The position numbers were made by a program, and so were the translations under genes. The notes below the pieces were generated by a model that was given only the letters and a program-made list of their open reading frames with translations, did no database searches and was not told the origin of the DNA. Positions 15,487 to 49,436 of a stretch of 64,000 nucleotides of DNA are shown in pieces. Positions within the stretch are counted from its first letter, which is position 1. Every line of letters begins with the position of its first letter. This DNA comes from Platerodrilus igneus (lineage: Eukaryota > Arthropoda > Insecta > Coleoptera > Lycidae). The stretch lies in the NCBI GenBank assembly GCA_036346225.1, contig JARFIW010000500.1, forward strand, positions 682,001 to 746,000. The letters run 5' to 3'.

Positions 15487-15900
15487 AAAACCTGTAATTA
15501 AAAAAAAAAAAAAGCTGTTGTTCTGAAACACTTCAGAGAATATTCTCCTCACCACTTAGGCTGAAGTGAACCTTCCCAACCTATAATTTACTATATTGTT
15601 GCTTTAAACACTATCGAGGATATTCTCCTCACCCGCAGGCTGGTGTTCTCAACAACAAACAAGTGAATTGTGACATTATAACTTAAATCTACTTAATTTA
15701 TACTAATTCTAAACCTACTGAAGCGGAACCAGTTTAATCTTGCTTTCTCATTGGTTGTTAACCAATAGGAAAGCAAAGCAGATGACTCTATTGGCCCTTT
15801 ATCGGTGTTTAAGAGGGTCCTTTATGTTTAACAATTTTAATTGATTCATAGGCATTTAAGGAGGAAAACGTTGGTACCGCTTTTAACAATTTAACATTTT

Positions 15901-16335: not shown

Positions 16336-17551
16336 TGTAATTCGCTATTTGTTTAATAAGAGCAAATTCCTTATTAAATCTGTTTTTATTTAAAGGGAAA
16401 TTCAATAATCTATTAATTAAAAGTTAAATGAAGCCAACTTATGTTGTAGGCTATGATTAGAGGAAGACAAAATAAAGCGATTTACATTGGTTTCTTTTCT
16501 ATAAATGTCAAATTCTAATTTATTACCATTTCTAATTACTAATGTATCTAAAAAGGGTAATTGTCCATTATTCTCTAGTTCATACGTAAATTTTATGCTT
16601 TGAAATTTTGAATTCATTTCTTTAAGAAAATCATCAACATTTGATTTAGAAGTGTCAAAAACTGCAAAATATCATCCACGTACCTTAACCATATTCTTGG
16701 GAAGTATTTGGAGTTTTCTTTTAACTCGGTTTCAAAACGAGACATAAATAAATTTGCTATGAAAGGTGATAAGCTATTTCCATTGCTGTGCCTTCATGTT
16801 GTTCGTACAACTTGTTGTTGAATTGAAAACAGTTCTGGGACATGCAATGCGAAACAAGCTTGATATAGTCCTCAACTTTATCATCATCAATATCACTATC
16901 TATAAGAACATCCTTTAAATATGTTAAAGTACGTGGTATTGGAACACTAGGGAATAATAAACTGACATCAAATGAAATTAAGATTTCGTTCCCTTCTAAT
17001 GTGATATTTTTAATTTTATTAATGAACTGTAAAGAGTTTTGTACAGACAAACTATTAAACTTTAAATTCTTAAATTCATTTGACAGCCATCGTGATAAAT
17101 AGTAAGTCGGTGAGTTGATACCTGAAACTATTGGTCTCATCGATTTATTATTTTGTGAATCTTTGGTAAACAGTAAAGTTTTGGCATTTCAGGATTTGAA
17201 ATTGTTAATTTTAATTTTAGTGTGGGCGAAATTAGGTTTGTACATTCTTTCAAACAGACTGTGTTGATTTAATCATTTTATTTAAAGGAACTTCATTTTT
17301 ACGTTTTTTGACTATTGGTCTGTAAGGACCTCAGACAGCAAAGTCTCTACTCTATCAACATAGTCTTGTTTATCCAGAATAACCAACCTATTCCCTTATC
17401 AGCCTTTAAATAATAACAATTCTTTTGTCGTAAATCTTTAATAATCAGATGATCTTTCCTTGTTTGTTCTGAGACATTCCTTGCGCAAGTGCGTAAGTTG
17501 TTCGAAAGTTGAATTTTGCACGCGTTTCTAATAAAGTTTTTGAATTGTCAT
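16336..17551 (-). pseudogene. PLE copy A: reverse transcriptase (frame-broken)
   Basis: The region is colinear with the intact RT frame of copy B. Recognisable pieces are MRPIVSGINSPTYYLSRWLS and SFDVSLLFPSVPIPRTL (frame 16757-17140, motif A aspartate present), RYVDDI (near 16670-16690) and LPFLDTLVIRNGNKLEFDIYRK (frame 16417-16617). Breaks against copy B are single-base shortenings of homopolymers at 16780-16781, 17151-17154 and near 17265. No large deletion is visible. Confidence 0.8.
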
Positions 17552-18178
17552 CTAATTTTGAAATGGATTTTCAATGCCAGCAATAATGTCTTCCAAAGGA
17601 GTTTTCAAATGATCTACTCCAAATTTTAGGCCTCGATCAAGAAAAGTCAACTCTTCATTATTAAAGATTTTCGACGATTCGTTAACAACTATTGACTCTA
17701 ATTGAGGTGAAGTAATTTCCAGTTTTTTAGGAGGTACATTGACATTGTGTTTCTTTAAAAGAAACTTCAACTTAGTGTTTTGACTATTAATTTTGTCTAA
17801 CAATTTATGATTGTTGACTTCAAAAACAAATCTCTGGAAATTATTCCATTCCTGAAAACTGGACTCGGATAAATTGCACGTTAGTGCTAGGTGCGATTTA
17901 TACGTTTCCAGTTCCAATCTACTAAGCTTACTGTACAGATATTTTATTTCCAAATTAAGCCACTTATCTTTTGCAAAATTGATTATTGCGTTACTACGTT
18001 TACAATTACTGCTGATTTTTACGTTAATGAAATTTGGAAAAACTTTGTGGGCTTTACAACTTTTTAGAAATCGAATATCTGCTTTTACAAAACTAATTTT
18101 AAGAGCTAAGCTCCGATACCTATTAAGTTCCGAAGACCGGGAAGTCATAGTTAATAATCTATAGGAACACTGTGGCAC
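17552..18178 (-). CDS. PLE copy A: N-terminal region of the polyprotein
   Basis: An open frame of 208 codons begins about 20 bp inside the upstream terminal repeat (MPQCSYRLLTM) and covers the N-terminal region that precedes the RT in PLEs. It includes the stretch EELTFLDRGLKFGVDHLKTP that also opens copy B. Charged, helix-rich sequence such as KYLYSKLSRLELETYKSHLA is typical here. The frame ends at 17552 in a break just before the RT. Only copy A retains this part. Its function in PLEs is not well established. Confidence 0.75.
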   Translation of the reverse strand: MPQCSYRLLTMTSRSSELNRYRSLALKISFVKADIRFLKSCKAHKVFPNFINVKISSNCKRSNAIINFAKDKWLNLEIKYLYSKLSRLELETYKSHLALTCNLSESSFQEWNNFQRFVFEVNNHKLLDKINSQNTKLKFLLKKHNVNVPPKKLEITSPQLESIVVNESSKIFNNEELTFLDRGLKFGVDHLKTPLEDIIAGIENPFQN

Positions 18179-18271: not shown

Positions 18272-18298
18272 AAAACCTGTAATTAAAAAAAAAAAAAA

Positions 18299-19310
18299 AA
18301 ATGAAGAGTTGACTTTTCTTGATCGAGGCCTAAAATTTGGAGTAGATCATTTGAAAACTCCTTTGGAAGACATTATTGCTGGCATTGAAAAATCCATTTC
18401 AAAATTAGATGACAATTCAAAAAACTTTATTAGAAACGCGTGCAAAATTCAACTTTCGAACAACTTACGCACTTGCGCAAGGAATGTCTCAGAACAAACA
18501 AGGAAAGATCATCTGATTATTAAAGATTTACGACAAAAGAATTGTTATTATTTAAAGGCTGATAAGGAGAATAGGTTGGTTATTCTGGATAAACAAGACT
18601 ATGTTGATAGAGTAGAGACTTTGCTGTCTGAGGGTCCTTACAGACCAATAGTCAAAAAACGTAAAAATGAAGTTCCTTTAAATAAAATGATTAAATCAAC
18701 ACAGTCTGTTTTGAAAGAATGTCCAAACCTAATTTCGCCCACACTAAAATTAAAATTAACAATTTCAAATCCTGAAATGCCAAAACTTTACTGTTTACCA
18801 AAGATTCACAAAAATAATAAATCGATGAGACCAATAGTTTCAGGTATCAACTCACCGACTTACTATTTATCACGATGGCTGTCAAATGAATTTAAGAATT
18901 TAAAGTTTAATAGTTTGTCTGTACAAAACTCTTTAGAGTTCATTAATAAAATTAAAAATATCACATTAGAAGAGAACGTAATCTTAATTTCATTTGAAGT
19001 CAGTTCATTATTCCCTAGTGTTCCAATACCACGTACTTTAACATATTTAAAGGATGTTCTTATAGATAGTGATATTGATGATGATAAAGTTGAAGACTAT
19101 ATCAAGCTTGTTTCGCATTGCATGTCCCAGAACTGTTTTCAATTCAACAACAAGTTGTACGAACAACATGAAGGCACAGCAATGGGAAATAGCTTATCAC
19201 CTTTCATAGCAAATTTATTTATGTCTCGTTTTGAAACCGAGTTAAAAGAAAACTCCAAATACTTCCCAAGAATATGGTTAAGGTACGTGGATGATATTTT
19301 GCAGTTTTGA
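18299..19310 (+). CDS. PLE copy B: reverse transcriptase (5'-truncated)
   Basis: The frame opens inside the polyprotein (NEELTFLDRGLKFGVDHLK) right after an A-run that joins copy A's terminal repeat, so it has no native start. It then runs intact for about 340 codons through the telomerase-related RT: KADKENRLVILDKQDYVDRV, LYCLPKIHKNNKSMRPIVSG, motif A (SFEVSSLFPSVPIPRTL), GTAMGNSLSPFIANLFMSRF and motif C (WLRYVDDILQF). Motif A has SFEVS where copy A has SFDVS, so the first catalytic aspartate is lost in this copy. It breaks right after motif C at a T-run (19305-19308) that is one base shorter than in copy A. Confidence 0.9.
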
Positions 19311-19704
19311 CACTTCTAAATCAAATGTTGATGATTTTCTTAAAGAAATGAATTCAAAATTTCAAAGCATAAAATTTACGTATGAACTAGAGAATAATGG
19401 ACAATTACCCTTTTAGATACATTAGTAATTAGAAATGGTAATAAATTAGAATTTGACATTTATAGAAAAGAAACCAATGTAAATCGCTTTATTTTGTCTT
19501 CCTCTAATCATAGCATACAACATAAGTTGGCTTCATTTAACTTTTAATTAATAGATTATTGAATTTCCTTTAAATAAAAACAGATTTAATAAGGAATTTG
19601 CTCTTATTAAACAAATAGCGAATTACAATGGTTTCTCTTCTGATATTATAAATAATATTTTTAGAAAGTGTAAAAATAGGATAAACATCCGTAAATCAAC
19701 GACT
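19311..19704 (+). pseudogene. PLE copy B: RT thumb and linker region, frame-broken
   Basis: Pieces homologous to copy A (YELENNGQ, LVIRNGNKLEFDIYRKETN, FALIKQIANYNGFSSDII) are present in shifting frames. One break is a T-run at 19411-19414, four bases here and five in copy A. Nothing large is missing between the RT and the endonuclease. Confidence 0.75.
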
Positions 19705-20214
19705 TTGCAATCAACCACCTCTAACGATAATGTTAAATATGTTAAACTTCCGTTTCACAAAACCACAAAGGGTCTTGATAAAATATTCAAACAGTGTAAT
19801 TTCAAAATTGCTTTCACTAATACTAATAAAATTAAAGATTTGCTAGGTAATCCAAAAGACAAGGGGGAAAAATTGCAAAAGTCGGGGATTTATGAAATTA
19901 GTTGTGCAGGGCCAGGGTGTTTTCAAAAATATATTGGTCAGACCAAGAGGAATATAACAACAAGATTTAAAGAACACATTGCTCACTTCAAATATGATAA
20001 ATATGAAAGGTCTCAGGTCGCCAAACATATATTTGAAACCAGCCACCCCGTTAAACTAGAAAATGTTAAATTGTTAAAAGCGGTACCAACGTTTTCCTCC
20101 TTAAATGCCTATGAATCAATTAAAATTGTTAAACATAAAGGACCCCTCTTAAACACCGATAAAGGGCCAATAGAGTCATCTGCTTTGCTTTCCCTATTGG
20201 TCAACAACCAATGA
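19705..20214 (+). CDS. PLE copy B: GIY-YIG endonuclease domain (complete)
   Basis: The frame carries SGIYEISCAGPGCFQKYIGQ (GIY...YIG), the arginine in TTRFKEHIAHF and the HIFETSHP motif. Unlike copy A it continues to the natural C-terminus (ESSALLSLLVNNQ). About 260 bp downstream is the 3' terminal repeat with the hammerhead. The true ORF must extend upstream into the RT, so the start at 19705 is only the first codon of the surviving frame. Confidence 0.88.
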   Translation: MQSTTSNDNVKYVKLPFHKTTKGLDKIFKQCNFKIAFTNTNKIKDLLGNPKDKGEKLQKSGIYEISCAGPGCFQKYIGQTKRNITTRFKEHIAHFKYDKYERSQVAKHIFETSHPVKLENVKLLKAVPTFSSLNAYESIKIVKHKGPLLNTDKGPIESSALLSLLVNNQ

Positions 20215-20474
20215 GAAAGCAAGATTAAACTGGTTCCGCTTCAGTAGGTTTAGAATTAGTATAAATTAAGTAGATTTAAGTTATAATGTCACAACTCACT
20301 TGTTTGTTGTTGAGAACACCAGCCTGCGGGTGAGGAGAATATCTTCGATAGTGTTTAAAGCAACAATATAGTAAATTATAGGTTGGGAAGGTTCACTTCA
20401 GCCTAAGTGGTGAGGAGAATATCCTCTGAAGTGTTTCAGAACAACAGCTTTTTTTTTTTTTAATTACAGGTTTT

Positions 20475-20515
20475 CTACTGATGATGGCCACATAGTGGTC
20501 GAAATACGTATTTAG
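20475..20515 (+). ncRNA. Hammerhead ribozyme in PLE copy B 3' terminal repeat
   Basis: Core positions are visible. CTGATGA lies at 20478-20484. Stem II is GGCCAC (20486-20491) with GTGGTC (20495-20500), six pairs closed by an ATA loop. GAAA is at 20501-20504. Stem III is ATAC/GTAT (20504-20511) without a loop, which is usual for PLE hammerheads thought to act as dimers. Stem I is CTA (20475-20477) with TAG (20513-20515). The cleavage site would be after T20512. Hammerheads in PLE terminal repeats are established. Activity of this one is inferred. Confidence 0.88.
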
Positions 20516-20566
20516 TAATTTAAATATTTTTTGTGGTTAAGGGATTTTATTTAATTTTATTTAAAT

Positions 20567-21110
20567 ATATAAATTTTTTTGCTATTTTTTGGCTACCATT
20601 TGCAAAAGAAAAAAAATCAAATTTTCAAATAATAAAATAAATATCAATATATACAAGAGTAAAGTACATTAAAGAAATTAATTGCTGGCATGACTAAAGA
20701 ATACCTACGTTTAATGAATTATTTACTCCTAAAATATGCAACTCCCAAATTATCAGAACACATCAAAATATATATAAGAATTATTTGCTAATTATTTGCT
20801 TTTTTTTGCTGATAAAACCAACTTTTGCTATATCTGTGAAAAAGTTACAAGTGGCTAGATAGCTTAATAAAAGCTATCTAGCCAACTAAAAACAAATACC
20901 TACACAAAATAAAATTAAAAACTAACAATGTATAAATTTTTTGCTACCATTTGCAAAAGAAAAAATCAAATGTTCAAATAATAAAATAAATATCAATAAC
21001 TACAAGAGTAAAGCACATTAAAGAAATTAATTGCAGGTATGACTAAAAGATACCTACGTTTTACGAATTATTTACTCTTAAAATATGCAACTCCCGAATT
21101 TTTTGTTCGC
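20567..21110 (-). repeat. Left arm subrepeats of the foldback element
   Basis: Subrepeats read in the reverse orientation of the right arm. They include a GTGGCTAGATAGC...GCTATCTAGCCA hairpin (about 20853-20886), a CAAGAGTAAAG block and the AGAATACCTACG block. The same units occur at 15010-15269 left of the PLE block, and their outer tip is at 10280-10372. Confidence 0.8.
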
Positions 21111-21330
21111 GAAATTAAATGTTCAAACGATAATAATGGCCTTTTGTCGTTCTTTATATTAATTTCGTGAGCAAAAAACTCTGGATTTACATAATTTAAC
21201 AGCAAATAAATCAAGCTACATGATTATGAAATTATGATAGAAGGAATTAATTTTTTAAAAGCACTTTACTTTTGTAGTCTCAGGCCAACTTATATTATTA
21301 TTATCGTTTGAACATCTAATTTAATGAGCA
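21111..21330. repeat. Centre (loop) of the foldback element
   Basis: The centre is marked by inner inverted segments: TGTTCGCGAAATTAAATG and TCAAACGATAATAA at 21114-21145 match the complement of TTATTATCGTTTGAACATC near 21297-21320. About 130 bp between them appear unique. No coding sequence is present. Confidence 0.7.
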
Positions 21331-24162
21331 AAAAATTCGAGAGCTGCATATCTAAAGAGCAAATAACTCAAAAACATTGCAAATGCGATAGTCGTGGCAG
21401 CAATTAATTTCTTTATTGTACTTTACTCTTGTAGATGGATATCAATATTTATTTCATTATTCGAGAAAATAGATTTTTTTGTTTGAAAATGGTAGTAAGA
21501 AAATAGCAAATTATGTATGAATTGTTAATTTTTTTATTTTATTTTGTGTAGGTATTTTTTTTTAGTTGGTTAGATAGCTTATATTAAGCTATATAGCCAC
21601 TTGTAACTTTTTCACAGATATAGTAGAACAATTGGTTTTATCAGCAAAAAAAGCAAATAATTAGCAAATAATTCCTATATATATTTTAATGTGTTCTGAT
21701 AATTTGGATCAGACAGCTTAATAGACTTCTACTTGTAACTTTTTCACAGATATAGCAAAAAAATTGGTTTGATCAGCAAAAAAAGCAAATAATTAGCAAA
21801 TAATTCCTATTATATATTTTAATGTGTTCTGATAATTTGGATCAGACAGCTTAATAGACCTCCACTTGTAACTTTTTCACAGATATAGCAAAAAAAAATT
21901 GGTTTGATCAGCAAAAAAATCAAATAATTAGCAAATAATTCCTATATATATATATTTTGATGTGTTCTGATAATTTGGATCAGACAGCTTAATAGACTTC
22001 TACTTGTAACTTTTTCACAGATATAGCAAAAAAATTGGTTTGATCAGCAAAAAAAGCAAATAATTAGCAAATAATTCCTATTATATATTTTTATGTGTTC
22101 TGATAATTTGGGAGTTGCATATTTTAAGAGTAAATAATTCATTAAACGTAGGTATTCTCTAGTCACGCCAGCAATTAATTTCTTTAATGTACTTTACTCT
22201 TGTAGAGATTGATATTTATTTTATTATTTGAAAATATGATTTTTTTTCTTTTGCAATGGTAGCAAAAAATAGTAAAAATTTTATATATTGTTATTTTTTT
22301 AATTTTATTTTGTGTAGGTATTTTTTGTTAGTTGACTATATAGCTTATATTAAGCTATCTAGCCACTTGTCACTTTTTCACAGATATAGCAAAAAAATTG
22401 GTTTTATCAGCAAAAAAAGAAAATAATTAGCAAATAATTCCTATATATATATATTTTGATGTGTTCTGATAATTTGGATCAGACAGCTTAATAGACTTCT
22501 ACTTGTAACTTTTTCACAGATATAGCAAAAAAATTGGTTTGATCAGCAAAAAAAGCAAATAATTAGCAAATAATTCCTATTATATATTTTTATGTGTTCT
22601 GATAATTTGGGAGTTGCATATTTTAAGAGTAAATAATTCATTAAACGTAGGTATTCTCTAGTCACGCCAGCAATTAATTTCTTTAATGTACTTTACTCTT
22701 GTAGAGATTGATATTTATTTTATTATTTGAAAATATGATTTTTTTTCTTTTGCAATGGTAGCAAAAAATAGTAAAAATTTTATATATTGTTATTTTTTTA
22801 ATTTTATTTTGTGTAGGTATTTTTTGTTAGTTGACTATATAGCTTATATTAAGCTATCTAGCCACTTGTAACTTTTTCACAGATATAGCAAAAAAATTGG
22901 TTTGATCAGCAAAAAAAGCAAATAATTAGCAAATAATTCCTATTATATATTTTTATGTGTTCTGATAATTTGGGAGTTGCATATTTTAAGAGTAAATAAT
23001 TCATTAAACGTAGGTATTCGCTAGTCACGCCAGCAATTAATTTCTTTAATGTACTTTACTCTTGTAGAGATTGATATTTATTTTATTATTTGAAAATATG
23101 ATTTTTTTTCTTTTGCAATGGTAGCAAAAAATAGTAAAAATTTTATATATTGTTATTTTTTTAATTTTATTTTGTGTAGGTATTTTTTGTTAGTTGACTA
23201 TATAGCTTATATTAAGCTATCTAGCCACTTGTCACTTTTTCACAGATATAGCAAAAAAATTGGTTTTATCAGCAAAAAAAGAAAATAATTAGCAAATAAT
23301 TCCTATATATATATATTTTGATGTGTTCTGATAATTTGGATCAGACAGCTTAATAGACTTCTACTTGTAACTTTTTCACAGATATAGCAAAAAAATTGGT
23401 TTGATCAGCAAAAAAAGCAAATAATTAGCAAATAATTCCTATTATATATTTTTATGTGTTCTGATAATTTGGGAGTTGCATATTTTAAGAGTAAATAATT
23501 CATTAAACGTAGGTATTCTCTAGTCACGCCAGCAATTAATTTCTTTAATGTACTTTACTCTTGTAGAGATTGATATTTATTTTATTATTTGAAAATATGA
23601 TTTTTTTTCCTTTGCAATGGTAGCAAAAAATAGTAAAAAATTTATATATTGTTATTTTTTTAATTTTATTTTGTGTAGGTATTTTTTGTTAGTTGACTAG
23701 ATAGCTTATATTAAGCTATCTAGCCACTTGTCACTTTTTCACAGATATAGCAAAAAAATTGGTTTGATCAGCAAAACAAAGCAAATAATTAGCAAATAAT
23801 TCCAATATATATTTTTATGTGTTCTGATAATTTGGGAGTTGCATATTTTAAGAGTAAGTAATTCATAAAACGTAGGTATTCTTTAGTCATGCCAGCAATT
23901 AATTTCTTTAATGTACTTTACTCTTGTAGATATTGATATTTATTTTATTATTTGAAAATTTTATTTTTTTTCTTTGGCAAATGGTAGCTAAAAAATAGCA
24001 AATAATTTATATTGTTAATTTTTTTATTTTATTTTGGGTATATATATTTTTTTTAGTTGGCTAGATAGTTTAATATTAAGCTATCTAGCCACTTGTAACG
24101 TTTTTACAGATATAGCAAAAATTGGTTTTATCAACAAAAAAGGAAATAATTAGCAAATAATT

Positions 24163-24221
<59 letters not shown>

Positions 24222-27869: not shown

Positions 27870-29035
27870 TTTGCAAGAATAGTGACGTATACCTACCCAC
27901 TTATCATTGGTGGCATATCTTGCGCATGACTAAATTTATTGTTGAGCAACAACCGCACATGCACAGGACTTAGTTGTTTCTACTGATTACTTGTTGATCA
28001 TTGGTTGGTACAAGGCGAAATAAGGATATAAACCGTTTACCAGTATGCATAACAGATGTAAATACATGAATAAACTTGTTTTTTGCAATAATCCCATTTC
28101 AGCCAAAAATGGGCATGTGTTGTTTCTGCATATGCCGGTTCAATTATAAAAAAATAAGAATCTGCAATAAATAATGCTGACCAAACGTAGTTCATCAAAA
28201 AGTTTGGTAACTTCTGCAAAAAAATTATTAATAGACATGCAGCAATAAGGATTAAGCGAGCATAAATTAGTTAATGCAAATTATAAGGGTAGGTGGGAAA
28301 GGAGTACAGACACCTTTTATTTAATCGAACAGGAATAGGTTAGTATGAAAAAATTAAGTAAAATACAAAAACTGGAAGCAAAATATGAAGTACCAACAAG
28401 GAAATTTCAAAAGATACAACTAATAGTCATAGGACTGCGCATGCTCTCAGTAGGATAATTACATATGGAGGTTAGAATGCATATAATACTATAATGAACG
28501 CGCCAAAGATTTAAAAAGAACGATGGGTAAATGGATTGAGTGACAGTTACATGGGAACACTTAAAGTATAGAGAAGCTATAAATCGACAACATTCTAAAT
28601 TGCTTCTAGTATTTTCTTGTCCCTATTGGCGACTTACATAAATCGTGAAATCGTGATATAAATTATTAGAGCTACGGGTTGAAATAAATACGCTTATGTC
28701 TGTATAAATTAAAATCAAACGGTAAGTTAATTAGAATGAAATAAATTAATAGTGCTTCGAGCATTAATTGTAGTGTACCGTTTTAAAAAATTAGTACAGT
28801 ATACATTGATAGCAATAAACTTGTAATAATCGTCATTAATGCAATCGACAGCGTTATATCAGACTGTAGCAGTAATTAAAAAATATATAGAACACTCTGA
28901 AAATCACGCCTATTTACTAAACCGACCTCATATCTGCTTAGCGATAAGAACGGATGATTTATAGGTATAGTATTACAATCATATTTGTCTAGCATAAGAA
29001 AAATGATTAACAAGTATCGTAATGTAATAGGTTTG
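27870..29035. other. AT-rich sequence without recognisable features
   Basis: Short ORFs here show no family motifs. Nothing structured was seen. Confidence 0.45.
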
Positions 29036-29086
29036 ATGACGTACATTCTAGAGGTTTTGCCGATTTAACTAGAATAAAGATTATTC

Positions 29087-29094
29087 TATATAAG
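29087..29094 (+). promoter_or_regulatory. TATA box candidate of a possible 5' LTR remnant
   Basis: TATATAAG is followed after about 25 bp by a GC-richer start-site region (GCGTTAGCTTC). It lies just upstream of the element's coding part. A TGTAATAG run at about 29021 could be the LTR start. There is no matching 3' LTR to prove it. Confidence 0.4.
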
Positions 29095-29323
29095 CGCGAT
29101 TCCGTTGCGTTAGCTTCTTTGTTTTCTGAAAGACTTCAAGTCAGGCGTACAAAAATAGGAGAAAAGAGCACGGAAAAAATGATTGGACAGGTTCTTCGTG
29201 ACCAACGACCAAAGAGGAACGGACCAAAACACTGGAATAGTAGAGAATATAGGCATATCTAGTGACAGTGCAAGCAACCCAAGAACAAAACAAGCAAAAC
29301 CGGTGAACTAGAGGGAGCCGAGG

Positions 29324-29660
29324 ATGAGAGACAAAAGTCAACCTGCACGGGTTCTATTCCGGAAGACATCATTCACATTGCCTGAACTAGGTGTGGACTC
29401 AGTATTTACATATATGGACAGTAATAACGGTACGATAATTAGGTTTCTAGTTGATACTGGCGCCACTAAGACAATTGCTAACCCTGCCGTAGTACGTAAC
29501 CATGGCAAAGTGTGACGGCACGTTTTCGGGCAGTGGCCTGCGAAGACATTCGGACGCACGGAGTTTTCAACGTACAGATAGGGATTGGTAGCAAAATATT
29601 CGACCATGAAGTGTAGTAGCGGACATCACTAAAGAAGCTATACTGGGACTGGATATCTTG
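29324..29660 (+). pseudogene. pro: Retroviral-type aspartic protease
   Basis: The first frame carries FLVDTGATKTIANPAVV, the D-T-G-A active site with its usual hydrophobic flank. It stops at 29513-29515 after HGKV. The second half continues in another frame, with VQIGIGSKIF near 29574 and LGLDILKKYGYRLDIKEGAL near 29643-29700. The latter is the conserved LGxDxL motif near the protease C-terminus. The protease would release the polyprotein parts. Because gag is absent, the frame begins without a natural start. Confidence 0.75.
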
Positions 29661-30124
29661 AAAAAGTACGGGTATCGTTTGGACATAAAAGAGGGTGCTC
29701 TGAAAGTGGGGAACGAAGATGAACCGTTTTGTGAGGCAAGCGACGGATCTGCACAGGTTTGTTTGATGGATGACGTTTTTCTACAGGGAAGGACAGAAAT
29801 CGTAGTGGTGAGGCAATTGAATGGTGCACACCAGAAGAGTTTTATGCGTGCGATCACACTGGTCTGTGATGAGTCTCGGAAAGGACATACTCTTGGGAAC
29901 AGGGTTAACAAAAGTGTTATACATTGTGTCCGTTAGGATCCTAAACAGCAATAAGTATGACATCGCACTGAAACAGAGTGTCACAGTGCTGTAGTGCTCT
30001 TGTTAGTTCACGTAGCGGGGAGTACCAGCATCGTTAAGGAACCGCCAACCAGTAAGTGCTGTTCAAAATTATTGAACCAATTAATAAAACCAAGCCAGAA
30101 TTTCGAACAACCACAGTTGACTGA

Positions 30125-30898
30125 ACTTAAAAAACCTAAACTGACGATACTCAGATGTATTTGCTATTCATGGCAATCAAGCACAAAATCGATACCGAGG
30201 ATGCCCGACCAATAAGACAACAGCCTAGAAGAATACCATTGGCCAAGCGTGAAGCCGAGAGAATGGTTGACGGAATGGAGGGACAGGGTGTGATAATGCT
30301 CCGACAAAAAAACGGGTCAACAAGATTTTGTGTTGACCATCGCCGGTTGAATGGCGTGACGACAAAACAACATTTACCCATTACCGTCGATTGAAAAGAG
30401 GGTACTGGCAAAGAATGATGAAAGATTGCTTTTGTAATTGGCACTGGCCTATAGCAGTGATGCCATTTGGATTTTTCAATGCTCCTGACACGTTTCAGCG
30501 TTTAAGGGATAATATTATAAGTGAACTGTCATGGAAAACATTCCTCGTGTATTTGGATGACGTGATCGTGGTGATTGGGAAGACATTTAAGGAACGTTTA
30601 ACCGAATTGGAGAAAATGTTTATAAGATTGCGAGGAACCAATCCGAAGTCGAGCCCAAAGAAGTGCCATCTGCTTGACGAAGAGGTAAAATACCTGGCGC
30701 ATGTAGTTTCACGAAATGGATTTGGACCAGACCCAAAAGAAGTTAGGGCAGTGCAAGAGTGGCCGATAGTCAAAGACAAATATCAACTATGCAAAGTTCT
30801 TGGATTATACACATATTATAGAAGCTTTGTTCATGGATTTGCAAATATTGCCAAGCCATTCACTAAATTAACAGAAAGAGGGCGTGATTATGTATGAG
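30125..30898 (+). pseudogene. pol: Reverse transcriptase (deleted core)
   Basis: The frame at 30155-30394 shows KIDTEDARPIRQQPRRIPLA, the start of the RT, and GSTRFCVDHRRLNGVT, the conserved RxCVDYRxLN motif. Then about 60 residues, including the motif A aspartate (DLxSGY), are missing at about 30394. The frame at 30391-30897 resumes at MPFGFFNAPDTFQRL and has the active-site box FLVYLDDVIVV, then EKMFIRLRGTNPKSSPKKCH and VSRNGFGPDP. This RT cannot work. The deletion is larger than a homopolymer error and is a real lesion. Confidence 0.8.
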
Positions 30899-31160
30899 AC
30901 GAGAGTTGTCAAAATGCGTTCCAATACCTAAGACATTTATTGACGGCTGCTCCGATCATAAGTTATCCTCGGTAGAAAAACAAATTCATATTACAGACGG
31001 ACGCTAGTAATGTTGTCATTGGAAGTGTGTTGTCCCAGATACAGAACGGACAAGAAAAAGTAATTGGTTATTTCAGCAAGGTGCTATCGAAACCGGAAAA
31101 AGCTATTGCATTAGGAGAAAAGAAGTATTGACTGTAGTGAAATCAATACAGCACTTTTGA
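30899..31160 (+). pseudogene. RNase H domain (truncated)
   Basis: QNAFQYLRHLLTAAPIISYP leads into LQTDASNVVIGSVLSQ, the first catalytic aspartate of the domain. YFSKVLSKPEK and a corrupted KEYLTVVKSI-type motif (31120-31150) follow. The domain stops near QHF and jumps to sequence before the integrase zinc finger, so its C-terminal half is deleted. Confidence 0.7.
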
Positions 31161-32060
31161 AAGTCGTATTGGGCACAGTGGGGTTGCTTGAAGTTAGAAA
31201 ACGGGATCTTGGTGCGATCCCTATAAAAGAAGGATGGATCTGTCAGTACGCTTCAGATGGTGATTACCAAGAATCGGGTGTCCGAGGTTATAGGACATCT
31301 ATATAATGGGACGTCAGGAGGAAACTTCGGCGTCAAGAAAATTCTAGAAAAAGTTAAAAGATTTTACTGGGTATGTTGAAGGAAGGCGTCGGGGAATGAT
31401 GCAGGAAATGTCAGTTATGTGCGCCGTTGGGCAACCAAAGAGCGCTCGTGAGGCAATACAACGCAGGACGCCCGTTTGAAAGTGGCAATTGATATCGCAG
31501 GCCTATTCCACGAAACTGACTCTAGAAATAAATACATTTTGGTGGCCATAGACTACTTTACAAAATGGACTGAGGCGTATGCCATACCCAAGCATAAAGC
31601 ACCAACGCATTGGTCAAAGAATTTTTCTACTGTTTTAGAATACCTTTGGGGCTGCACGCTGACCCAAGGAAAATTTTGTATTGACGCTATTTCAAAAAGT
31701 TTGCCGACTACTGGGAATGATACCGTTGTATCCTCAATCGGATAGTGGAACGGATGAACCGCACTCTCAATCGGATGGTATAGAGGAACGCATGAACCGC
31801 ACCTTGGGAAAGTATTTCTCTAATGTGGTTTCTGAAGATTAAAGGGTCTGGGACCAATACACACCTATTTTTATTGGTCTACCAATCTGAAGTTCACGAG
31901 AGTACTAAACTGACATCTGCATGTGCTATGCTGGGGCACGAAATACGTTTACCATGTGACTTTGAGTTCGGTATGATAGAGAGGACGTTGTAGGCGAAAG
32001 TTATGTTGAGAAACTCAAACGAAGAATGCATGGCATCCATGAAGATGTAAAAAGAATATT
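31161..32060 (+). pseudogene. Integrase: zinc finger and catalytic core (decayed)
   Basis: The zinc-binding HHCC region is visible as GHLYNGTSGGNFGVKKILEK followed by CQLC-type residues in several frames (31290-31420). The core begins VAIDIAGLFHETDSRNKYIL (31476 on, first catalytic D), then DYFTKWTEAYAIPKHKAP. The second catalytic motif (TDQGxNF) is damaged (LTQGKFCIDAI, near 31660). The third lies in SIG.WNG.TALSIGWYRGTHEPHLGK-type sequence (31735-31810), which contains a local duplication of about 30 bp. EVHESTKLTSACAMLGHEIRL (31887-31950) is the end of the core. Integrase inserts the cDNA. This copy is dead. Confidence 0.7.
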
Positions 32061-32522
32061 CACATTGCGAGCGACCGGATGAATACCGCGTATGATTGTA
32101 CAATCCCAGGCGGACGCGTGGATTGTCGTCAAAGTTACAAAGACAATATGATTGTCTCTACGAAGTACTGAAACGAATCAGCGATGTAGTATATAGGATT
32201 CGGAAGTTCCTAAAAGGCAGGACAATAGTAGTGCACATTAACAGAGCGGCATCTTACGAGAGTGACGATTACAGCAATGCCGGAGGACATGATAATGTGA
32301 GGCGAATAGGCAGCCAGGTAGATGAATCAAGGTCTGGTCCAAATAATGAATGGTTTATGTTTGTGTACATCGGTACCGGCAAGTCGAGGTTTGGGATTAT
32401 CGGAAAAGGCAACAGGGATCTATTTGATGTACTGTCGAAATACTCTCTTGCACATTGTGTAGCAGCGGATCTCGATATGACTCGAAGTATCGCTACGATG
32501 TTTGAAAAGCAAATTTTGGTAG
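32061..32522 (+). pseudogene. Integrase C-terminus fused to macrodomain, first half
   Basis: One uninterrupted frame (32096-32527) holds both parts. Residues 2-55 are the integrase tail: YNPRRTRGLSSKLQRQ, then VVYRIRKFLKGRTIVVHINR. After a linker of about 40 residues, residues 97-140 read GIIGKGNRDLFDVLSKYSLA and then HCVAADLDM...IATMFEK. This follows the ADP-ribose-binding macrodomain pattern of the TARG1/OARD1 type (KGDLF...SLAHCxxxDxxMGxGIAxxFKxxFG). Macrodomains bind or remove ADP-ribose. A retroelement could use one against host ADP-ribosylation, but that is inference. The glycine-rich MGxGIA loop is MTRSIA here, so this copy would not bind well. The domain resumes at 32851 beyond a SINE. 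Confidence 0.75.
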
Positions 32523-32534
32523 TCTGAACTAGCT
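32523..32534 (+). repeat. Target site duplication of the SINE (left copy)
   Basis: TCTGAACTAGCT is repeated as TCTGGACTAGCT at 32839-32850, 12 bp with one mismatch. It fixes both ends of the SINE. Confidence 0.8.
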
Positions 32535-32838
32535 GGCGTCGCCGTGGATCAATGTAGTAAGCGTAAGACTACGGATCCCAAGGTCCTGGGTTTAAATCCC
32601 GTCACGGCCGACTGCTTAAAAAATGGCAAGTGAGCATTTTTCACAAAAATTACGCCCTCATTCGGATGAGAGGTTAAATGGAGGTCCCGTGTGTGAGTGT
32701 TGTCACGCACGTTAAAGATCCCTACCTTGCCTGGAACGACAAGGGTTCGGCAAAATTCCAAATTTCCAGGCAACAAAAAATTCGCCTCCTGGCCAATGTA
32801 GTACCTTCGGGTGGAGCATTGGAAATGTAAATGAACGG
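32535..32838 (+). mobile_element. tRNA-derived SINE inserted in the macrodomain
   Basis: This 304-bp insertion has a tRNA-like head. TGGATCAATGTAGTAAGCG resembles an A box, and GGGTTTAAATCCCG is a B box in a stem-loop. The ends GCCGTGG and CACGGCC pair like an acceptor stem. The body follows without coding capacity (32610-32838). It is bounded by an almost perfect 12-bp target duplication, which indicates LINE-driven insertion. RNA polymerase III transcription from the internal boxes is expected. Confidence 0.75.
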
Positions 32839-32850
32839 TCTGGACTAGCT

Positions 32851-33233
32851 TCACCAAAAACAACCAGACGTGGTAAAACCATACACCTTAGAGATGGACG
32901 TTCTCGCATTTACTATCTAGTGAACAAAGCAATTTGTCCTCTGATAAACCTAGTTACCAAATACCGAAACCCATTGGGGACAGTAGTGCATCTCAAGGAC
33001 CAGATGATGGAGTTTGGCGACAAGAAGTTGGCCATACCAAAAACTGGTCGTGGGCTCGATAGATTGGATCGGTAGGTAGTACGAAACATGCAGAATGTAT
33101 ACTATTCCAGAAGACCGAGGTCCAAATCTTGGCTCGTAGCTTTACAGAAAATTCAAGAAAGGTTAGTAAAAGGTGAGTTCGAGTTTAGCAAGAACAATGA
33201 GACAACCCCAACCCTAATATTAGATAAATAATA
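32851..33233 (+). pseudogene. Macrodomain, second half, and C-terminal tail
   Basis: The frame resumes with QKQPDVVKTIHLRDGRSRIY, then YLVNKAI, LGTVVHLKDQMM and KLAIPKTGRGLDRLDR. These match the second half of TARG1/OARD1-type macrodomains (RYIYYLxTK...LxxMK...LxxPRIGCGLDxLxWxxV). The aspartate of the GLD motif, which is catalytic in human TARG1, is present. An in-frame stop follows at 33073-33075, where the family has WE. VVRNMQNVYYSRRPRSK and about 30 more residues continue to a stop near 33233. The two halves together have the length of a complete macrodomain, so the SINE is the only large interruption. Confidence 0.75.
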
Positions 33234-33339: not shown

Positions 33340-34115
33340 ACCCTTCCGAGAATACTCTCTTCACAGCATAGGCTGAAGAAAGCCTTTTCAACAAACAATT
33401 AATTAATCGTCATCGCAAGTTTGTGATCTACACAGTACAAAGTGAATTATACCTCTATACTAAGATCGTTCACTTTATACTATTTCTAGAACTGCTGGAA
33501 TCAATGGAGAAAGTAAATCATGTGAAGCTACAGGTCCCTATCAGTATTTAAAAGAGGCCCTTTTTGTTTAATCATTTCAATTGATTTATGAGCATTTTCA
33601 AACCTTATGATTGGTACAGCTTTTTCAGTTTGACATTTTTTACTTTAACGAAATGGCTAGTTTCAAGAATGTAATTGGTGACTTGAGATCTTTCATATTT
33701 TAGCATATTTCAAATGTGCAATGTGTTTTTTAAAGCTAGTTGTTATGTTCCATTTAATCTGGTTTATGTATTTGTTAAAATATCCTGTTCTCGAACAATT
33801 AATCTTATAAAATTCCTTACATTTCAAACTTGTCCAACAAATCTCTATTCTTACTTGTAATGGTCAAAGCAATTTTAAAATTTAGCTGTTCAAGGATCTA
33901 ATTAAGAGTTAATAGTTTTATAAAAACTTAATATAATTAAGATTACCGTTAGTTGTTGCAAGATCGCTTTCACGGATGCGATTTTTATTTTTACATTTTA
34001 TGAGAACTTCGTCGTTAATAATAGTAAAGAACCATTATAATTCACTATTTCTTTACTATGCGCAAGTTTCCAATTAAACTTGTTTTAATTTAAAAAAAAA
34101 TTAATCTATTAACTA
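33340..34115 (-). pseudogene. Old PLE copy: endonuclease region and 3' end
   Basis: Blocks line up in order with PLE copy A at 15540-16420. They include CGAGAATA.TCTCTTCAC near 33349, the CAGTATTTAAAAGAGG block near 33541, AAAATGTCAAACTG near 33632, the CATTGCACATTTG block near 33720 and the CACGGATGCG block near 33972. Many substitutions and small indels destroy the frame. Orientation is minus, so its RT should lie at higher coordinates. A matching RT scrap is found at 37990-38115, so the two may be one element split by about 3.9 kb of later insertions. Confidence 0.7.
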
Positions 34116-43379: not shown

Positions 43380-43455
43380 CCGTCTCGGTGGCGTAATTGG
43401 AAAACGCATTAGCCGCGAAAGCCCAAGACACAGATTCGAATCCTGTTCGGGACAT
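43380..43455 (+). ncRNA. tRNA-like sequence (SINE head or tRNA pseudogene)
   Basis: CGGTGGCGTAATTGGAAAACGC resembles a tRNA D-arm/A box, and ACAGATTCGAATCCTGT a T-arm with loop TTCGAAT (one mismatched pair). The flanks CCCG and CGGG pair partly like an acceptor stem. The anticodon arm is not convincing, so this is more likely a tRNA-derived SINE than a working tRNA. Confidence 0.5.
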
Positions 43456-44545: not shown

Positions 44546-45636
44546 GACATAGTAACGTCAAACTAATATCAATCAATTTCTTATGATTTAAAGGTATTAG
44601 AATGGGTTTTAATGCGATACAACAAAATGGTATTCCTTTGTTATGCCTAATTGATAGTGCGGCTACCGATGCACGTGAGCAAGAAACAAACAAGTAATAA
44701 CAATAAAACTTTTATTTTGTAATATCGAAAAACTGAAATTAAATTGAATTTTAAATAGGTACCTAAACAAGTTGAAGTCGACCTTCTAAGTTGTTGTGAG
44801 TTGAGTCTTATCTAACAAAAAGTAATTTTATTTTCTTTGTTAGATACTGTAGTATTTATGAAGTGCTTCTGGTTCATTCAACCACTCAGTGGATAAGTCA
44901 AACTTGACCAGTTTTGGAAATTTCTTATTGAGACTGGTGTTTTTAGTTCGGGTGCCATTTTGGTTGTTTTAAAAGCAATTATTGAAGGAAATAGTAACGT
45001 AAAATTTGACATTAATTTTACTTGTGCTTCGAAAGTCTTCGTTTGTAACGCAGAAAAGACAATTAAGAAGTTGAGTTTGAAACTTGAAATAAATTCGATG
45101 AATTGCAAGTTCATTGTCTAATTCTTGTAATGTTTCCTTTTGAGATGAAGCTGTCTTTCGACCACTTTTGCAGTGTTGATGTCATTCCATCTTGGCTCTC
45201 GTTAACGGCTACCCTAAACCATTCATTATCCTATAGTTTCCTACATTCCAAGCTTTGTCTGGTACTTTGGCACTTTCTAACGGATATATTGTTTTCTTTC
45301 CCTTTCTTTCTCTTTTTGGCCCTGTTCAGTTTTCTAATATGAGTTTCTGCTCGCACTGTTGTTGTATTGCTACACAGCATATAAATACACACACACACCA
45401 TACACACACATGCGCACGTATGCTCAACCATTACTCCGCTGTTTCGTTTTATTTTGTTTTCTTCCCGGATCACGTATCTATTCTTTCTTAAACTCCTAAT
45501 ATCCATTTCCTTTTCCTTTGACTGGTTTTACTTGCTGTCAGTCTTCACGTTCACTTAGTTTAATTTTCTACAATCTTCCAGTGGTAATTAATTACTAAAC
45601 CTTTTTTTCTTTCTTTTTGTCTGGGAAACTACAACG
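44546..45636. other. Non-coding flank of the Ty3 element
   Basis: A CA-rich tract lies at 45384-45412. The segment 45125-45275 resembles 53722-53870 on the other side of the LTR element (GCAGTGTTGATRYCATT, CCTATAGTTTCCTACATTCC, AGCTTTGTCTGGTACTTTGG), a direct repeat of unknown family. I see no recognisable gene. Confidence 0.5.
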
Positions 45637-47114
45637 TGTAACATACTGTTTTAATACGCTCTAATTAGTTCTATGATTTCTAAAAATAGTTATTTTCTAG
45701 TTTAATTTTAGCATTCTAATTATTAGAATGAAGGTCTGGTAACATAAATATGTCTGTAATTGTAACGGTTGCAAGACTACCCAAGTAGCGTCCTAGCGAA
45801 GTTTCCAGGAAGGTCTAATCCAAGAGTTAATCAATTTTTCTAAAGGCACTTTACTTCAAAGGCACTACACATGTCAGATTAGTTGCTATGTATGATTAGA
45901 TGTCAAACATGTTTTAGGATCCTATTTATGTCAGGGTGGTCGGAAGCAATTTTTCAATTAGCGGAGTACTCAACTAAAATTAGTTCCGAGATCTACTTGT
46001 GTGGCTATCTTAGGGCAATTGGCAGTTTAATTATTCTTAAAGATTTACGACCGGCGTATCCTAAGCCGAGTATGAGAGCCAAAAAAGGGGTTATTTTTCA
46101 ATTAACTTAAATGTATATAAGGATGCCAGCCGATGGTAATCGGGGTTGTTTATTTCCAGACGCGTTGTAGTCTAAAGCTCGCGGACTTGCAAGATTGAGT
46201 AAGTGTTTTATTTCTCTGAATTCAAGTGCGTGCCGTTATGTTCAAAGTTAGTTTATTTCTCTGAGTAAGTAATTATTATATATGGTATTACTATGAACTC
46301 AAGGCTGTGTTATGCATCATAAGTCATTTGTTTGTTTAAATACAATATCTGTCGACTTTCATAGCATACAACTTCGGGTTAAAGCCCCGTTCCAGTAATT
46401 TAATCCCGTTAGGTTATTGTTAAAGACCGCATCTTTTGAAGGGTTTCTTATTTTATTGTGTTTCGACCTTGTCCGAGGCTTGTAATAACTAAGCCACGAA
46501 TTCCGTTACTGTACTATTTGACCCGTGTGAAGGTCATGTTTTTCCTGTCATTGATGACCCCCGTGATTAAAGGAAGGTCGTTTCAGTATGCAAGTTAAGT
46601 AGACTGCGGTAGCGTTAATTAATTATATGTATTGGGGTGTTTGCACCCAGAACTGTTGTTAATATTCATAAAATAAGGACTTTAGAACTGTTTAGTTAAG
46701 TTGTGTTTGTGCTAGCCGGAGACTTTATAAGATTTGCCCATGTGAAGTGAAGTATTTTCTGTCCTGCAATCTTGGGTCATCGCCACGAACAAAGTGCGAC
46801 GAGAGCTATTACCGCGATCGGTCCATGGGCCGTTTAATTCCCATGGTGGCGCCCTATTGTAAATAATGTTAATTACTGTATAATTTTGTATGCATATGTA
46901 ATTAGGTTAAGTTAGTTAGTAGCCCGTTTAATAAAACAATTGGAATTTTGTCTTAGTGTGTTGTTGTTTAATGAACCTCCCCTTCTCACCGACTGCAGCA
47001 GCTTCCGAGGCAATGTCCCGAAACGTGAGGGTACTATAGTGTTAGAGGTCCTTCCCATTTATTATTTATTGTTAATTGGATACCCTCACGCGGTAGGTAA
47101 ATATTTAAATTACA
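45637..47114 (+). repeat. 5' LTR of the Ty3 element
   Basis: Begins TGTAACATACTG and ends AAATTACA. It contains a TATA box (46113-46120) and an AATAAAA signal near 46930, so U3, R and U5 can be placed roughly. Confidence 0.95.
46113..46120 (+). promoter_or_regulatory. TATA box in the 5' LTR
   Basis: GTATATAAGG is followed by a GC-richer start region (GCCAGCCGATGG) about 10-30 bp downstream. It is preserved at the same place in the 3' LTR (about 52479). Confidence 0.7.
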
Positions 47115-47115
47115 C

Positions 47116-47131
47116 TGGCGCATTAACGTGG
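47116..47131 (+). promoter_or_regulatory. Primer binding site
   Basis: TGGCGCATTAACGTGG starts one base after the LTR end. Its first six bases match the usual gypsy-type PBS (TGGCGCCCAACG...), the rest only partly. I cannot name the tRNA with confidence. Confidence 0.6.
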
Positions 47132-47257
47132 TTAAAAATCTTAAATATGGTAAACAACACACGGACAAAGTTTTAGATTGTTTTATTTCTATAGTACTAT
47201 TAAGATTTGAGCAGAATTAACAGTTTAATATTAGTGATTTAGGAACAGGTTTCGCTA

Positions 47258-48652
47258 TTGTTGGCATTTACCTTTTATTTAGTCATGTATGTGGTGGAAG
47301 CTTTAAGAAGTGACGAACTGAGTCACGAGCTTTCAATTAGGAACGTTGAACCAACAAAGTTAAGTGTGTTAGAAAAACGAAAAGTTTTGCGTTCAAAACT
47401 CATTGTTGAGAAAGTCGACAGTAATGTTTTTTCTAAGTATGAAAAAATTGAAATCGTTCAAAAGGACAAAATTGAATTATTGAAACTTAAGATTTTTGAA
47501 TTAGAAAACAGTTTAAATTCTTTTACCATTCTTCCTAAAAGGAAAGAATATATTAAACTTAACACGAGATTAATGCATGTAACACAGAGACTAAATTATG
47601 TCAATTTCGATATTGAATTTTTAGAGGTACACAAAGAACTGCATTCTAAGTGCATTAGAGCTTTTGAGATTTTAGAACAGGTAAACGGGGAAAATGAGAT
47701 TAACGATAACCCTTCTTATTGTTCGGCTAGTGGTAATAAAGATCCTACAATAACACCAACAGCAGAGGTTTCATGCCCTGGAGCATCAACGGTTTCTTCC
47801 ATTAACACCCCATCGGTTTCGATTTCTAGTAATGATTTAGGTACTCTAATGAAGTCCTTGAATAAATCAACGACATCAGTCCCGATCCACAAGTGGGGAT
47901 TACAATTTTCGGGTGAATCTGATTCTATATCGGTTTTAGATTTTATTCAACGCGTCAAGGAACTGCAAGTTGCAAGAAAAGTTTCGTCAGATGACCTTTT
48001 CGAAGGGGCTATTGATCTTTTCACCAGTTCAGCATTGGATTGGTATAGAGCAACGCGATGTACAGTAAATTCATGGGATCAATTAATTTCTAAATTAAAA
48101 CAAGATTTTCTTTCAGCCGATTATGCAGAGAATCTTTTAATGTTAATTAAATCCAGACGGCAAGGCGCCGAGGAATCACCTACCATTTATATTTCAAAGA
48201 TGGTAAACTTATTTTCTCAATTAGAAGATTCCATTCCAGTCCGGGAACAAATAAAAATTATTAAAAGAAATTTACAGACTTTTTATGCCACGCAACTGGC
48301 GTTAGTTGAAGTGACTGACATTTCCCATTTGATTTCTCGTTGTAAGGTTTTAGAAGACATTAAGCCTCCAAATTTTATTAAACACGAACATTCTGATTCT
48401 GCCAACGTACCAGTTATCTTAGAACGTCAAGTTCGACAGAGTTCATTTTCTAATAATAATTTACCTTGGTCCGGCGTGTCGAATTATTTTAAAAACACCG
48501 CAAAATTTTCGACTATTTGTTTCAACTGTAAAAGACGGGGTCACTCGTTTCATACTTGTCCGGAGAAACGCGGAATATTTTGTTATTCTTGTGGGCAGCG
48601 GGAAGTTACGTCCACAAACTGTCCAAACTGCTCAAATAATTCAAAAAACTAA
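47258..48652 (+). CDS. gag: Gag polyprotein with zinc knuckle
   Basis: An intact frame of 464 codons encodes the structural protein. Residues 1-150 are rich in charged heptads (coiled-coil-like). Residues 205-385 are a retrotransposon-gag capsid domain (HKWGLQFSGESDSISVLDF, ALDWYRATR, WDQLISKLKQDFL). The C-terminus has a nucleocapsid knuckle CFNCKRRGHSFHTC (C-x2-C-x4-H-x4-C) and a second, histidine-less CYSCG...CPNC motif often seen in this group. The annotated start at 47258 is a TTG. The first ATG is 47286, 28 bases on and in another frame position to be checked. The gag stop overlaps the frameshift signal into pol. Confidence 0.9.
   Translation: MLAFTFYLVMYVVEALRSDELSHELSIRNVEPTKLSVLEKRKVLRSKLIVEKVDSNVFSKYEKIEIVQKDKIELLKLKIFELENSLNSFTILPKRKEYIKLNTRLMHVTQRLNYVNFDIEFLEVHKELHSKCIRAFEILEQVNGENEINDNPSYCSASGNKDPTITPTAEVSCPGASTVSSINTPSVSISSNDLGTLMKSLNKSTTSVPIHKWGLQFSGESDSISVLDFIQRVKELQVARKVSSDDLFEGAIDLFTSSALDWYRATRCTVNSWDQLISKLKQDFLSADYAENLLMLIKSRRQGAEESPTIYISKMVNLFSQLEDSIPVREQIKIIKRNLQTFYATQLALVEVTDISHLISRCKVLEDIKPPNFIKHEHSDSANVPVILERQVRQSSFSNNNLPWSGVSNYFKNTAKFSTICFNCKRRGHSFHTCPEKRGIFCYSCGQREVTSTNCPNCSNNSKN
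48643..48652 (+). promoter_or_regulatory. -1 ribosomal frameshift site A_AAA_AAC
   Basis: The heptamer AAAAAAC (48643-48649) lies in the gag frame exactly as A AAA AAC and is followed at once by the gag stop TAA (48650-48652). This is the canonical slippery sequence for gag-pol synthesis. The -1 frame stays open for about 45 codons and joins the protease frame if one T-run break (48779-48783) is ignored. Confidence 0.8.
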
Positions 48653-48783
48653 GGACAGGAAAGCGCGTAGTCAGCCGTTGCTTTTCCTCGTTTAATAATA
48701 TTGCTGCTGACAAAAAGACGTGGTCGGAGTGGTTAGTAAAAGTTAAAAATTTTTGTAAAGCATCTAAGGTTTTTCAAATTTTT

Positions 48784-49436
48784 ATAAAGTAAAAGACGAT
48801 ACAAGACCTTATATTAATATCGAGTTATTTAAGGAAACTTATACCGCACTGTTGGATTCCGGGGCGAATACCTCTATTTTAGACAGACATGGTCTGTGTT
48901 TATTGGATAAATATAAGTTAGAATTAATTAAAAATGTAAAGACGTCTATATTAACAACCGCAGATGGCACTTCACAATCAATTTTAGGTTCAATTAATTT
49001 GCCCTTGACTATAAACGGGGTTACTCGGTCTTTAAATGTTTTAGTTTCCGACTCAATAGAGTGTACCCTAACGTTAGGGATTGATTTTTGTCAATTATTT
49101 GAATTGAAAGTAGATTTTTCAAAAAATGAATTTTATGCTCATTCTGCGGAAACGAATAAATTAAATTTCATTAAAGTTATGGCCGATTTAAATGAAAACC
49201 AGAAATTTGAATTAAACAATGTTATTTCTTTATTTCAATCCCTGGATCGTCCTACCTTAGGCCGAACCACTAAAATTTCACATCATATTACAACGGAAGA
49301 CGTTGAACCAATTAAACAAAGGTATTACCCATTATCACCGGCGATGCTGGAACATGCTAATAAAGAAATTGATGCGATGCTTGAACAAGGCATTATTAGC
49401 CCAAGCAATAGCCCGTGGAACTCCCCATGCTGTTAG
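48784..49436 (+). pseudogene. pro: Aspartic protease and start of RT
   Basis: The frame enters through KDDTRPYINIELFKETY, reaches the active site LLDSGANTSILD, and ends the protease with TLGIDFCQLF. Then the connection to RT follows: HHITTEDVEPIKQRYYPLSP and EQGIISPSNSPWNSP, the conserved start of the Ty3/gypsy RT. The frame breaks at a C-run (49423-49426) and again at an A-run (49442-49446). The protease itself looks intact. Its natural start is the -1 frameshift from gag, not a codon of its own. Confidence 0.85.

Follow-up and report, generated by a model that had tools for sequence, protein, structure and literature searches.

A TARG1-type macrodomain and a CCCH zinc finger follow the integrase in a high-copy Ty3/gypsy retrotransposon family of Platerodrilus igneus

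The DNA studied here is a stretch of 64,000 nucleotides from the beetle Platerodrilus igneus (contig JARFIW010000500.1 of assembly GCA_036346225.1, positions 682,001 to 746,000; the whole stretch is called the window below). We show that an old member of a high-copy Ty3/gypsy long terminal repeat (LTR) retrotransposon family, now broken, lies within it; Table 1 lists the recognizable parts of this copy. One open frame on the forward strand (32096-32527) runs from the integrase tail into a TARG1-like stretch, with Integrase_p58_C at residues 22-50 (Pfam, E = 8e-9) and a TARG1 profile match at residues 101-139. A preliminary description of this DNA had claimed such a join, with the second half of the macrodomain lying beyond a short interspersed nuclear element (SINE), and both claims hold, as the same profile matches residues 50-118 of a second frame (32716-33075). 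Among all 2,752 six-frame stop-to-stop segments of at least 15 amino acids in the window, these two frames rank first and second with a profile of 26 TARG1 domains, three Ty3 macrodomains among them (E = 2.1e-9 and 2.3e-6; next segment, 0.39). A smaller profile made from 12 animal TARG1s only (11 vertebrate, 1 Mytilus) also puts the same two frames first (E = 3.6e-6 and 8.7e-5; next, 0.31). The TARG1 model is covered consecutively, at positions 16-54 by the first frame and then 66-131 by the second, and a third macrodomain piece, the last strand, lies in a different frame at about 33099-33152.

The SINE that splits the macrodomain is flanked by a 12-base duplication, TCTGAACTAGCT (32523-32534) and TCTGGACTAGCT (32839-32850). 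Five related copies (L049, L051, L052, L054 and L055) have the site without the SINE, and an 86% copy of it lies elsewhere within L055. The window copy is riddled with stops and frame breaks and is dead. A protein database search with the window frame returned 12 candidates, none reaching E = 1; for the two macrodomain halves, PHROGs gave only one weak family of unknown kind and NCBIfam none, and tblastn against phages gave four Lactobacillus phage records for the first half (E = 0.2-0.5) and none for the second.

The architecture of the family is seen in L056, a relative in the same genome with a long pol frame. Its pol frame contains, in Pfam order, RVT_1 (residues 250-409), RNase H (473-601), H2C2 (725-782), rve (800-896) and p58_C (1043-1074), followed by Macro (1143-1241; 21.8 bits, with a cut-off of 22) and a zinc finger with three cysteines and one histidine (CCCH; 1268-1296). 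The TARG1 profile places the whole macrodomain of L056 at residues 1115-1260, and it matches 17 full copies with E values of 4e-49 to 4e-54; all 17 frames span H2C2 and rve, with the whole reverse transcriptase (RT) in three only. The motif C-x7-C-x5-C-x3-H is present in 17 of 17 full copies, and a decayed version of it is still found in the older copy L052. In the four copies whose ends were tested, all drawn from the copies with long frames, the LTRs are 522-527 bases long, have TG..CA ends and are 98.5-99.8% identical, which we read as recent movement of the family. All four are bounded by 4-base target-site duplications, one of them within AT repeats. A polypurine tract is embedded in the coding tail. 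About 40 bases separate an anchor at the end of the CCCH finger from the start of the 3' LTR, so that in these four copies there is no room for an errantivirus-type env open reading frame (ORF) between pol and the 3' LTR.

Upstream of the L056 copy, we found a gag-like frame bearing a CCHC knuckle. The family's gag is matched by zf-CCHC in L102 (E = 6e-6) and only weakly by Ty3_capsid in L103 (E = 0.025). The protease is represented by a Pfam fragment under its cut-off in the window copy, and none was seen in the L056 frame. The order of RT, RNase H, H2C2 and rve, the TG..CA LTRs with their duplications and the gag zinc knuckle are those of Ty3/gypsy elements (Metaviridae); the Chromo domain of chromoviruses had no Pfam match in L056, L059 or L067. 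Overall, pol ends with the integrase, its p58 C-terminal domain, the TARG1-type macrodomain and the CCCH zinc finger, followed by the polypurine tract and the 3' LTR.

The join recurs throughout the 2.7-Gb genome to which the window belongs. Searching that genome with the window frame gave 10,499 first-look candidates, and 150 copies were scored, the window copy included. According to the list of these, read by eye, all 150 start no later than residue 37, in the integrase tail, and 147 align from there into the macrodomain, to residue 125 at least. The genome has 3,148 matches, fragments counted too, to a 30-base pattern taken from the young macrodomain with up to two mismatches allowed, compared with 0 for the reversed pattern. 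From the copies listed with long open frames, 20 young ones were fetched, and a full TARG1 domain stands in one frame with the integrase, from H2C2 onward, in 17 of them (164-180 bits). A second sample, independent of the domain, consisted of 20 copies hand-picked down a list of 150 hits to an RT piece: 19 carry the macrodomain and the following tail, many being frame-broken, and the twentieth (L085) stops at a contig end. Hits L076-L079, which extend only 1.5 kb past the RT, stand outside this count.

These samples bear out the fusion of the macrodomain within the integrase lineage. The preliminary description had considered that intact relatives might always lack the domain; here relatives with open frames carry it, and P0124, a Ty3 pol protein from our search for relatives, likewise has a TARG1 domain behind the integrase. 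The thousands of copies, the recent movement and the CCCH zinc finger go beyond what had been claimed. A contrast is available within the window, where a Ty3-type element at 45636-53480 (LTRs of 1,479 bases, 99.3% identical; RT and integrase) is without macrodomain or CCCH tail, and Ty3-type pol remnants at 13153-11303 on the reverse strand (RT, RNase H, integrase) have no macrodomain nearby. We show that the macrodomain is a standing component of the element in the sampled copies, and that its sequence evolves under constraint.

The window frame shares 58-69% identity with its nearest relatives (L049-L055, all of which contain stops) and 46-49% with the 20 young copies; judged by these identities, the window copy belongs to an older subfamily. 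Among the 17 full young copies, macrodomains are 89-99% identical to one another. The domain occupies the same place in both subfamilies, and the fusion is therefore older than their split. The ratio of nonsynonymous to synonymous proportions of differences (pN/pS; uncorrected Nei-Gojobori, 136 pairs of the 17 copies) was 0.22 for the macrodomain (bootstrap 0.18-0.27), 0.19 for H2C2 plus rve, 0.16 for the C-terminal part of the integrase, 0.19 for the CCCH finger (120 pairs) and 0.13 for the RT (3 pairs only). The linker between p58_C and the macrodomain, at 0.44, serves as an inner control because the 17 copies were chosen for open frames.

The active site is also retained among young copies. 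The catalytic pair of TARG1 is Lys84 and residue 125, the latter written Glu125 in PMC7050489, where the mammalian TARG1 sequence has Asp. Among 51 young copies, 50 retain Lys84 and 49 retain Asp125; one copy is unreadable at each site, and one has Asn at position 125. An AlphaFold2 model of the L056 domain has a predicted local distance difference test (pLDDT) score of about 90 over the macrodomain and a low one over the tail. Its best PDB match is the TARG1-ADP-ribose complex 4j5s, with a template modelling (TM) score of 0.95 by target length, although this match is not independent because TARG1 sequences were in the alignment behind the model. Structure and constraint as set out here we regard as virtually certain.

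A search with a padded Mytilus TARG1 query gave 440 candidates, with 17 long proteins matching the query, and Ty3-type pol domains are present in three of the 17. In P0124 the TARG1 domain comes after the integrase; in P0123 a chromodomain (362-407) precedes the macrodomain (410-563); and in P0135 the macrodomain lies at the N-terminus (36-175). All three keep Lys84 and Asp125, and the CCCH motif is absent from each of them. Over RT and RNase H, P0124 is 56% and P0135 40% identical to L056. P0123 also has, at residues 690-766 behind its chromodomain and macrodomain, a weak match to a Rhabdovirus glycoprotein fusion domain (19.3 bits, cut-off 22) and is possibly an env-bearing Ty3 element. Separately, P0125, P0126, P0130 and P0131 carry TARG1-type macrodomains alongside further Pfam accessions, which we take to be DNA-ligase domains; the record of P0131 (Tigriopus) is named DNA ligase, with PF00645 also listed. 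In P0136, RNase HII and a 2OG-Fe(II) oxygenase domain occur together with a TARG1-like macrodomain.

The macrodomain of the element is 34-48% identical to the 27 animal TARG1s compared. We built a macrodomain tree of 26 rows on the C-terminal half only, with four young copies representing the element and with bootstrap values that had not settled. The four young copies form one clade (100/99), and the group around them (93/98) includes Ceutorhynchus and Dendroctonus proteins, P0133, P0135 and two non-element frames of the same genome, L114 and L115, while P0124 and P0123 fall outside it. The macrodomains of P0123, P0124 and P0135 are not grouped, requiring two changes on the tree; one change sufficed in 0% of 200 bootstrap trees. 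A single origin of all Ty3 macrodomains is disfavoured by this tree, though its firmly supported branches are compatible with one. With modest support, the tree suggests that the macrodomain was captured from an arthropod TARG1-like gene and that there was probably more than one capture across Ty3 elements as a whole; a capture shared with P0124 and followed by divergence is possible, because P0124 is close to L056 in its RT.

L114 and L115 share 73% identity over the compared half, and their 3.3-kb loci have no RT, integrase or p58 match; they are probably exons of host genes. Their nearest relatives in the tree set are P0133 and the Ceutorhynchus and Dendroctonus proteins. A third TARG1-like place in the genome lies at C739:88815-89069 (51%). 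Viral contigs scanned with the RT piece, with the second half of the macrodomain and with human OARD1 gave nothing that was confirmed. A scan with a TARG1 alignment found 47 loci (L001-L047) encoding TARG1-like macrodomains, 24 of the 47 contigs being longer than 100 kb, and RT, integrase and p58 matched 0 of the 47 at E = 1e-3.

TARG1 takes ADP-ribose off acidic residues and acts on nucleic-acid ends, as described in PMC7050489. A captured TARG1 acting as a hydrolase delivered with the integrase is, as a whole, the explanation towards which we lean. The macrodomain would travel with the integrase as an ADP-ribosyl hydrolase and would strip ADP-ribose, deposited by host PARPs, from acidic residues or nucleic-acid ends; it could do so at the break made at integration or on the incoming complex, and the CCCH finger may keep the module on element RNA or another nucleic acid. 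Hydrolase activity of the macrodomain appears likely, and its action at integration or against a PARP-type block is evenly poised between holding and failing. We infer, along the lines of the preliminary description, that the macrodomain would reverse host ADP-ribosylation. In Drosophila without PARP-1, eight mobile elements differed significantly, five up and three down, with 3 of the 8 in the gypsy superfamily; a further ten went up without significance, 9 of the 10 in the gypsy superfamily (PMC7712786).

Several observations weigh against this explanation or the evidence behind it. The PARP-1 effect is mixed and, according to the authors, maybe indirect (PMC7712786). The preliminary description had looked to macrodomain profiles for each half of the window copy; both match the TARG1 profile, but neither matches Pfam Macro (PF01661), which is borderline even in L056, L059 and L067 (21.8, 16.6 and 22.0 bits, cut-off 22). 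Comparisons of single halves with the PDB are weak, with TARG1 the top match for both, yet at E = 0.33 and 0.11. The CCCH matches fall under their Pfam cut-offs (zf_CCCH_4, E = 2e-4 in L056), the copies used for constraint were selected for open frames with a bias to young ones, and the fold match has the dependence mentioned above. The macrodomain is split between frames in 3 of the 20 copies with long frames, and in more of the RT-picked sample, which we take in part for probable assembly error. Small shared length differences in several copies had suggested a programmed frameshift within the macrodomain; we consider assembly error in runs of one base likelier. Finally, in the older subfamily the Lys84 position is Asn in three of five readable copies (L049, L051 and L055). 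These readings say little because all of the copies are broken, and a uniform loss of Lys84 in the older subfamily, suggested at first, was weakened by the Lys found in L052, L054 and the window copy.

The macrodomain might instead be a reader and not an eraser, guiding the integrase to ADP-ribosylated chromatin or DNA breaks, with hydrolysis incidental. Chromodomains are thought to direct other Ty3 integrases to marked histones; the macrodomain has the same position at the integrase C-terminus, P0123 has both domains, and Asn at the Lys84 position in older copies would suit binding without turnover. A pure reader, however, needs no catalytic pair, and the pair is kept in nearly all young copies as well as in the three Ty3 relatives, which leaves this explanation unlikely. 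We consider rather improbable a cytoplasmic counter-defence in which the module clears host-defence ADP-ribose off element RNA or particle proteins, independent of integration: host ADP-ribosylation is countered by viral macrodomains (PMC7232374), TARG1 is active on nucleic-acid ends too (PMC7050489), and the CCCH finger suggests RNA contact, but fusion to the integrase tail points to a role with the integration complex. That the element merely landed beside a host TARG1 fragment, or that the match is an artefact of composition, has in its favour the window halves unmatched by Pfam Macro and the two non-element frames L114 and L115, and is already refuted for practical purposes by the same join occurring in many copies, within LTRs, in frame and under constraint.

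Relative to known systems, the domain shares with TARG1 (OARD1, C6orf130; ALC1-like class) its fold, sequence and Lys84-Asp125 pair, but TARG1 is a free protein, whereas here the domain is C-terminal in a retrotransposon pol with a CCCH finger behind it. Chromoviruses carry a captured chromodomain at the Ty3 integrase C-terminus, the same place in the polyprotein; our elements add an ADP-ribose hydrolase fold together with CCCH, and no chromodomain was matched in the three copies examined for it. P0124, P0123 and P0135 share Ty3-type pol domains and a TARG1 macrodomain, in P0124 likewise after the integrase, and differ in lacking the CCCH finger and, for P0135 and P0123, in the N-terminal position of the macrodomain and its place behind a chromodomain, respectively. 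Positive-strand RNA viruses are also genetic parasites with an ADP-ribose hydrolase fold, but their macrodomains are of the MacroD type according to PMC7050489, and ours is of the TARG1 type. Some endogenous retroviruses of fish have macro-domain ORFs (Basta et al. 2009, via PMC4977317) and are likewise retroelements with an acquired macro-domain gene; there, these are additional ORFs, while here the domain is fused in frame to a Ty3 integrase and followed by CCCH. The preliminary description knew of no described macrodomain capture. Precedents exist in the domains that Ty3 elements have captured at the integrase C-terminus and in the macro-domain genes of fish retroviruses, but no in-frame integrase-TARG1-CCCH pol was found in the openly licensed literature.

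Here, a recently moved family with thousands of copies has on its integrase an ADP-ribose hydrolase domain that looks catalytic and whose constraint is about equal to that of the integrase core. This offers a testable link between ADP-ribosylation signalling and LTR retrotransposition, and adds one more domain to those known to be captured at the C-terminal end of Ty3 integrases. If the enzyme works, either the host ADP-ribosylates the sites of integration or the complexes coming in, or the modification is an obstacle that the element has to clear. More tentatively, Ty3/gypsy elements may have captured TARG1-type domains repeatedly (after the integrase with CCCH, after the integrase without it, after a chromodomain, and ahead of the protease at the N-terminus), making them the retrotransposon equivalent of viral macrodomains; host ADP-ribosylation would then restrict LTR retrotransposons, or guard their integration sites, so strongly that an enzyme travelling with the integrase is needed to counter it.

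Table 1. Parts of the broken Ty3/gypsy copy in the window, with the evidence for each
Feature	Position	Strand	Evidence
Probable 5' LTR remnant, older subfamily	28913..29108	+	81-83% identity to stretches 3' of the macrodomain in L049 and L051; LTR nature inferred
Aspartyl protease fragment	29312..29512	+	Pfam gag-asp_proteas E 3e-4, under its cut-off
N-terminal part of pol ahead of the RT, broken	29616..30310	+	tblastn with L056 residues 1-249, E 2e-23
Reverse transcriptase, broken frames	30299..30705	+	Pfam RVT_1 E 4e-11; tblastn E 7e-32
RNase H, broken	30706..31211	+	tblastn 61% over 132 aa, E 2e-51
Integrase H2C2 zinc-binding domain remnant	31263..31373	+	tblastn E 3e-12
Integrase catalytic core (rve), broken	31424..31737	+	tblastn E 6e-17; Pfam rve E 0.0023, under its cut-off
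Integrase C-terminal part, including the p58 C-terminal domain	31742..32266	+	tblastn E 1e-18 and 4e-20; Pfam Integrase_p58_C E 8e-9
N-terminal piece of the TARG1-type macrodomain, sharing one frame with the integrase tail	32396..32512	+	Profile E 2e-9, model 16-54; tblastn E 1e-13
SINE insertion	32523..32850		12-base target-site duplications 32523-32534 and 32839-32850, read from the sequence
Macrodomain middle piece with the TARG1 Lys84 and Asp125 positions	32863..33069	+	Profile E 2e-6, model 66-131
Macrodomain C-terminal strand, other frame	33099..33152	+	Likeness to the homologous L052 stretch by eye; L049 and L052 DNA alignments extend to 33132

Elsewhere in the window, two inverted arms of 2.28 kb (15386-17662 and 18297-20575) are 98.5% identical and separated by about 0.6 kb, and parts of them are 68% like 33499-34115, just beyond the end of the element. 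A block of repeated units, about 82-98% alike, occupies 20561-24181, with related pieces near 10300 and 15000. A tRNA on the forward strand (43382-43454) is the sole Rfam match in the window at gathering score.
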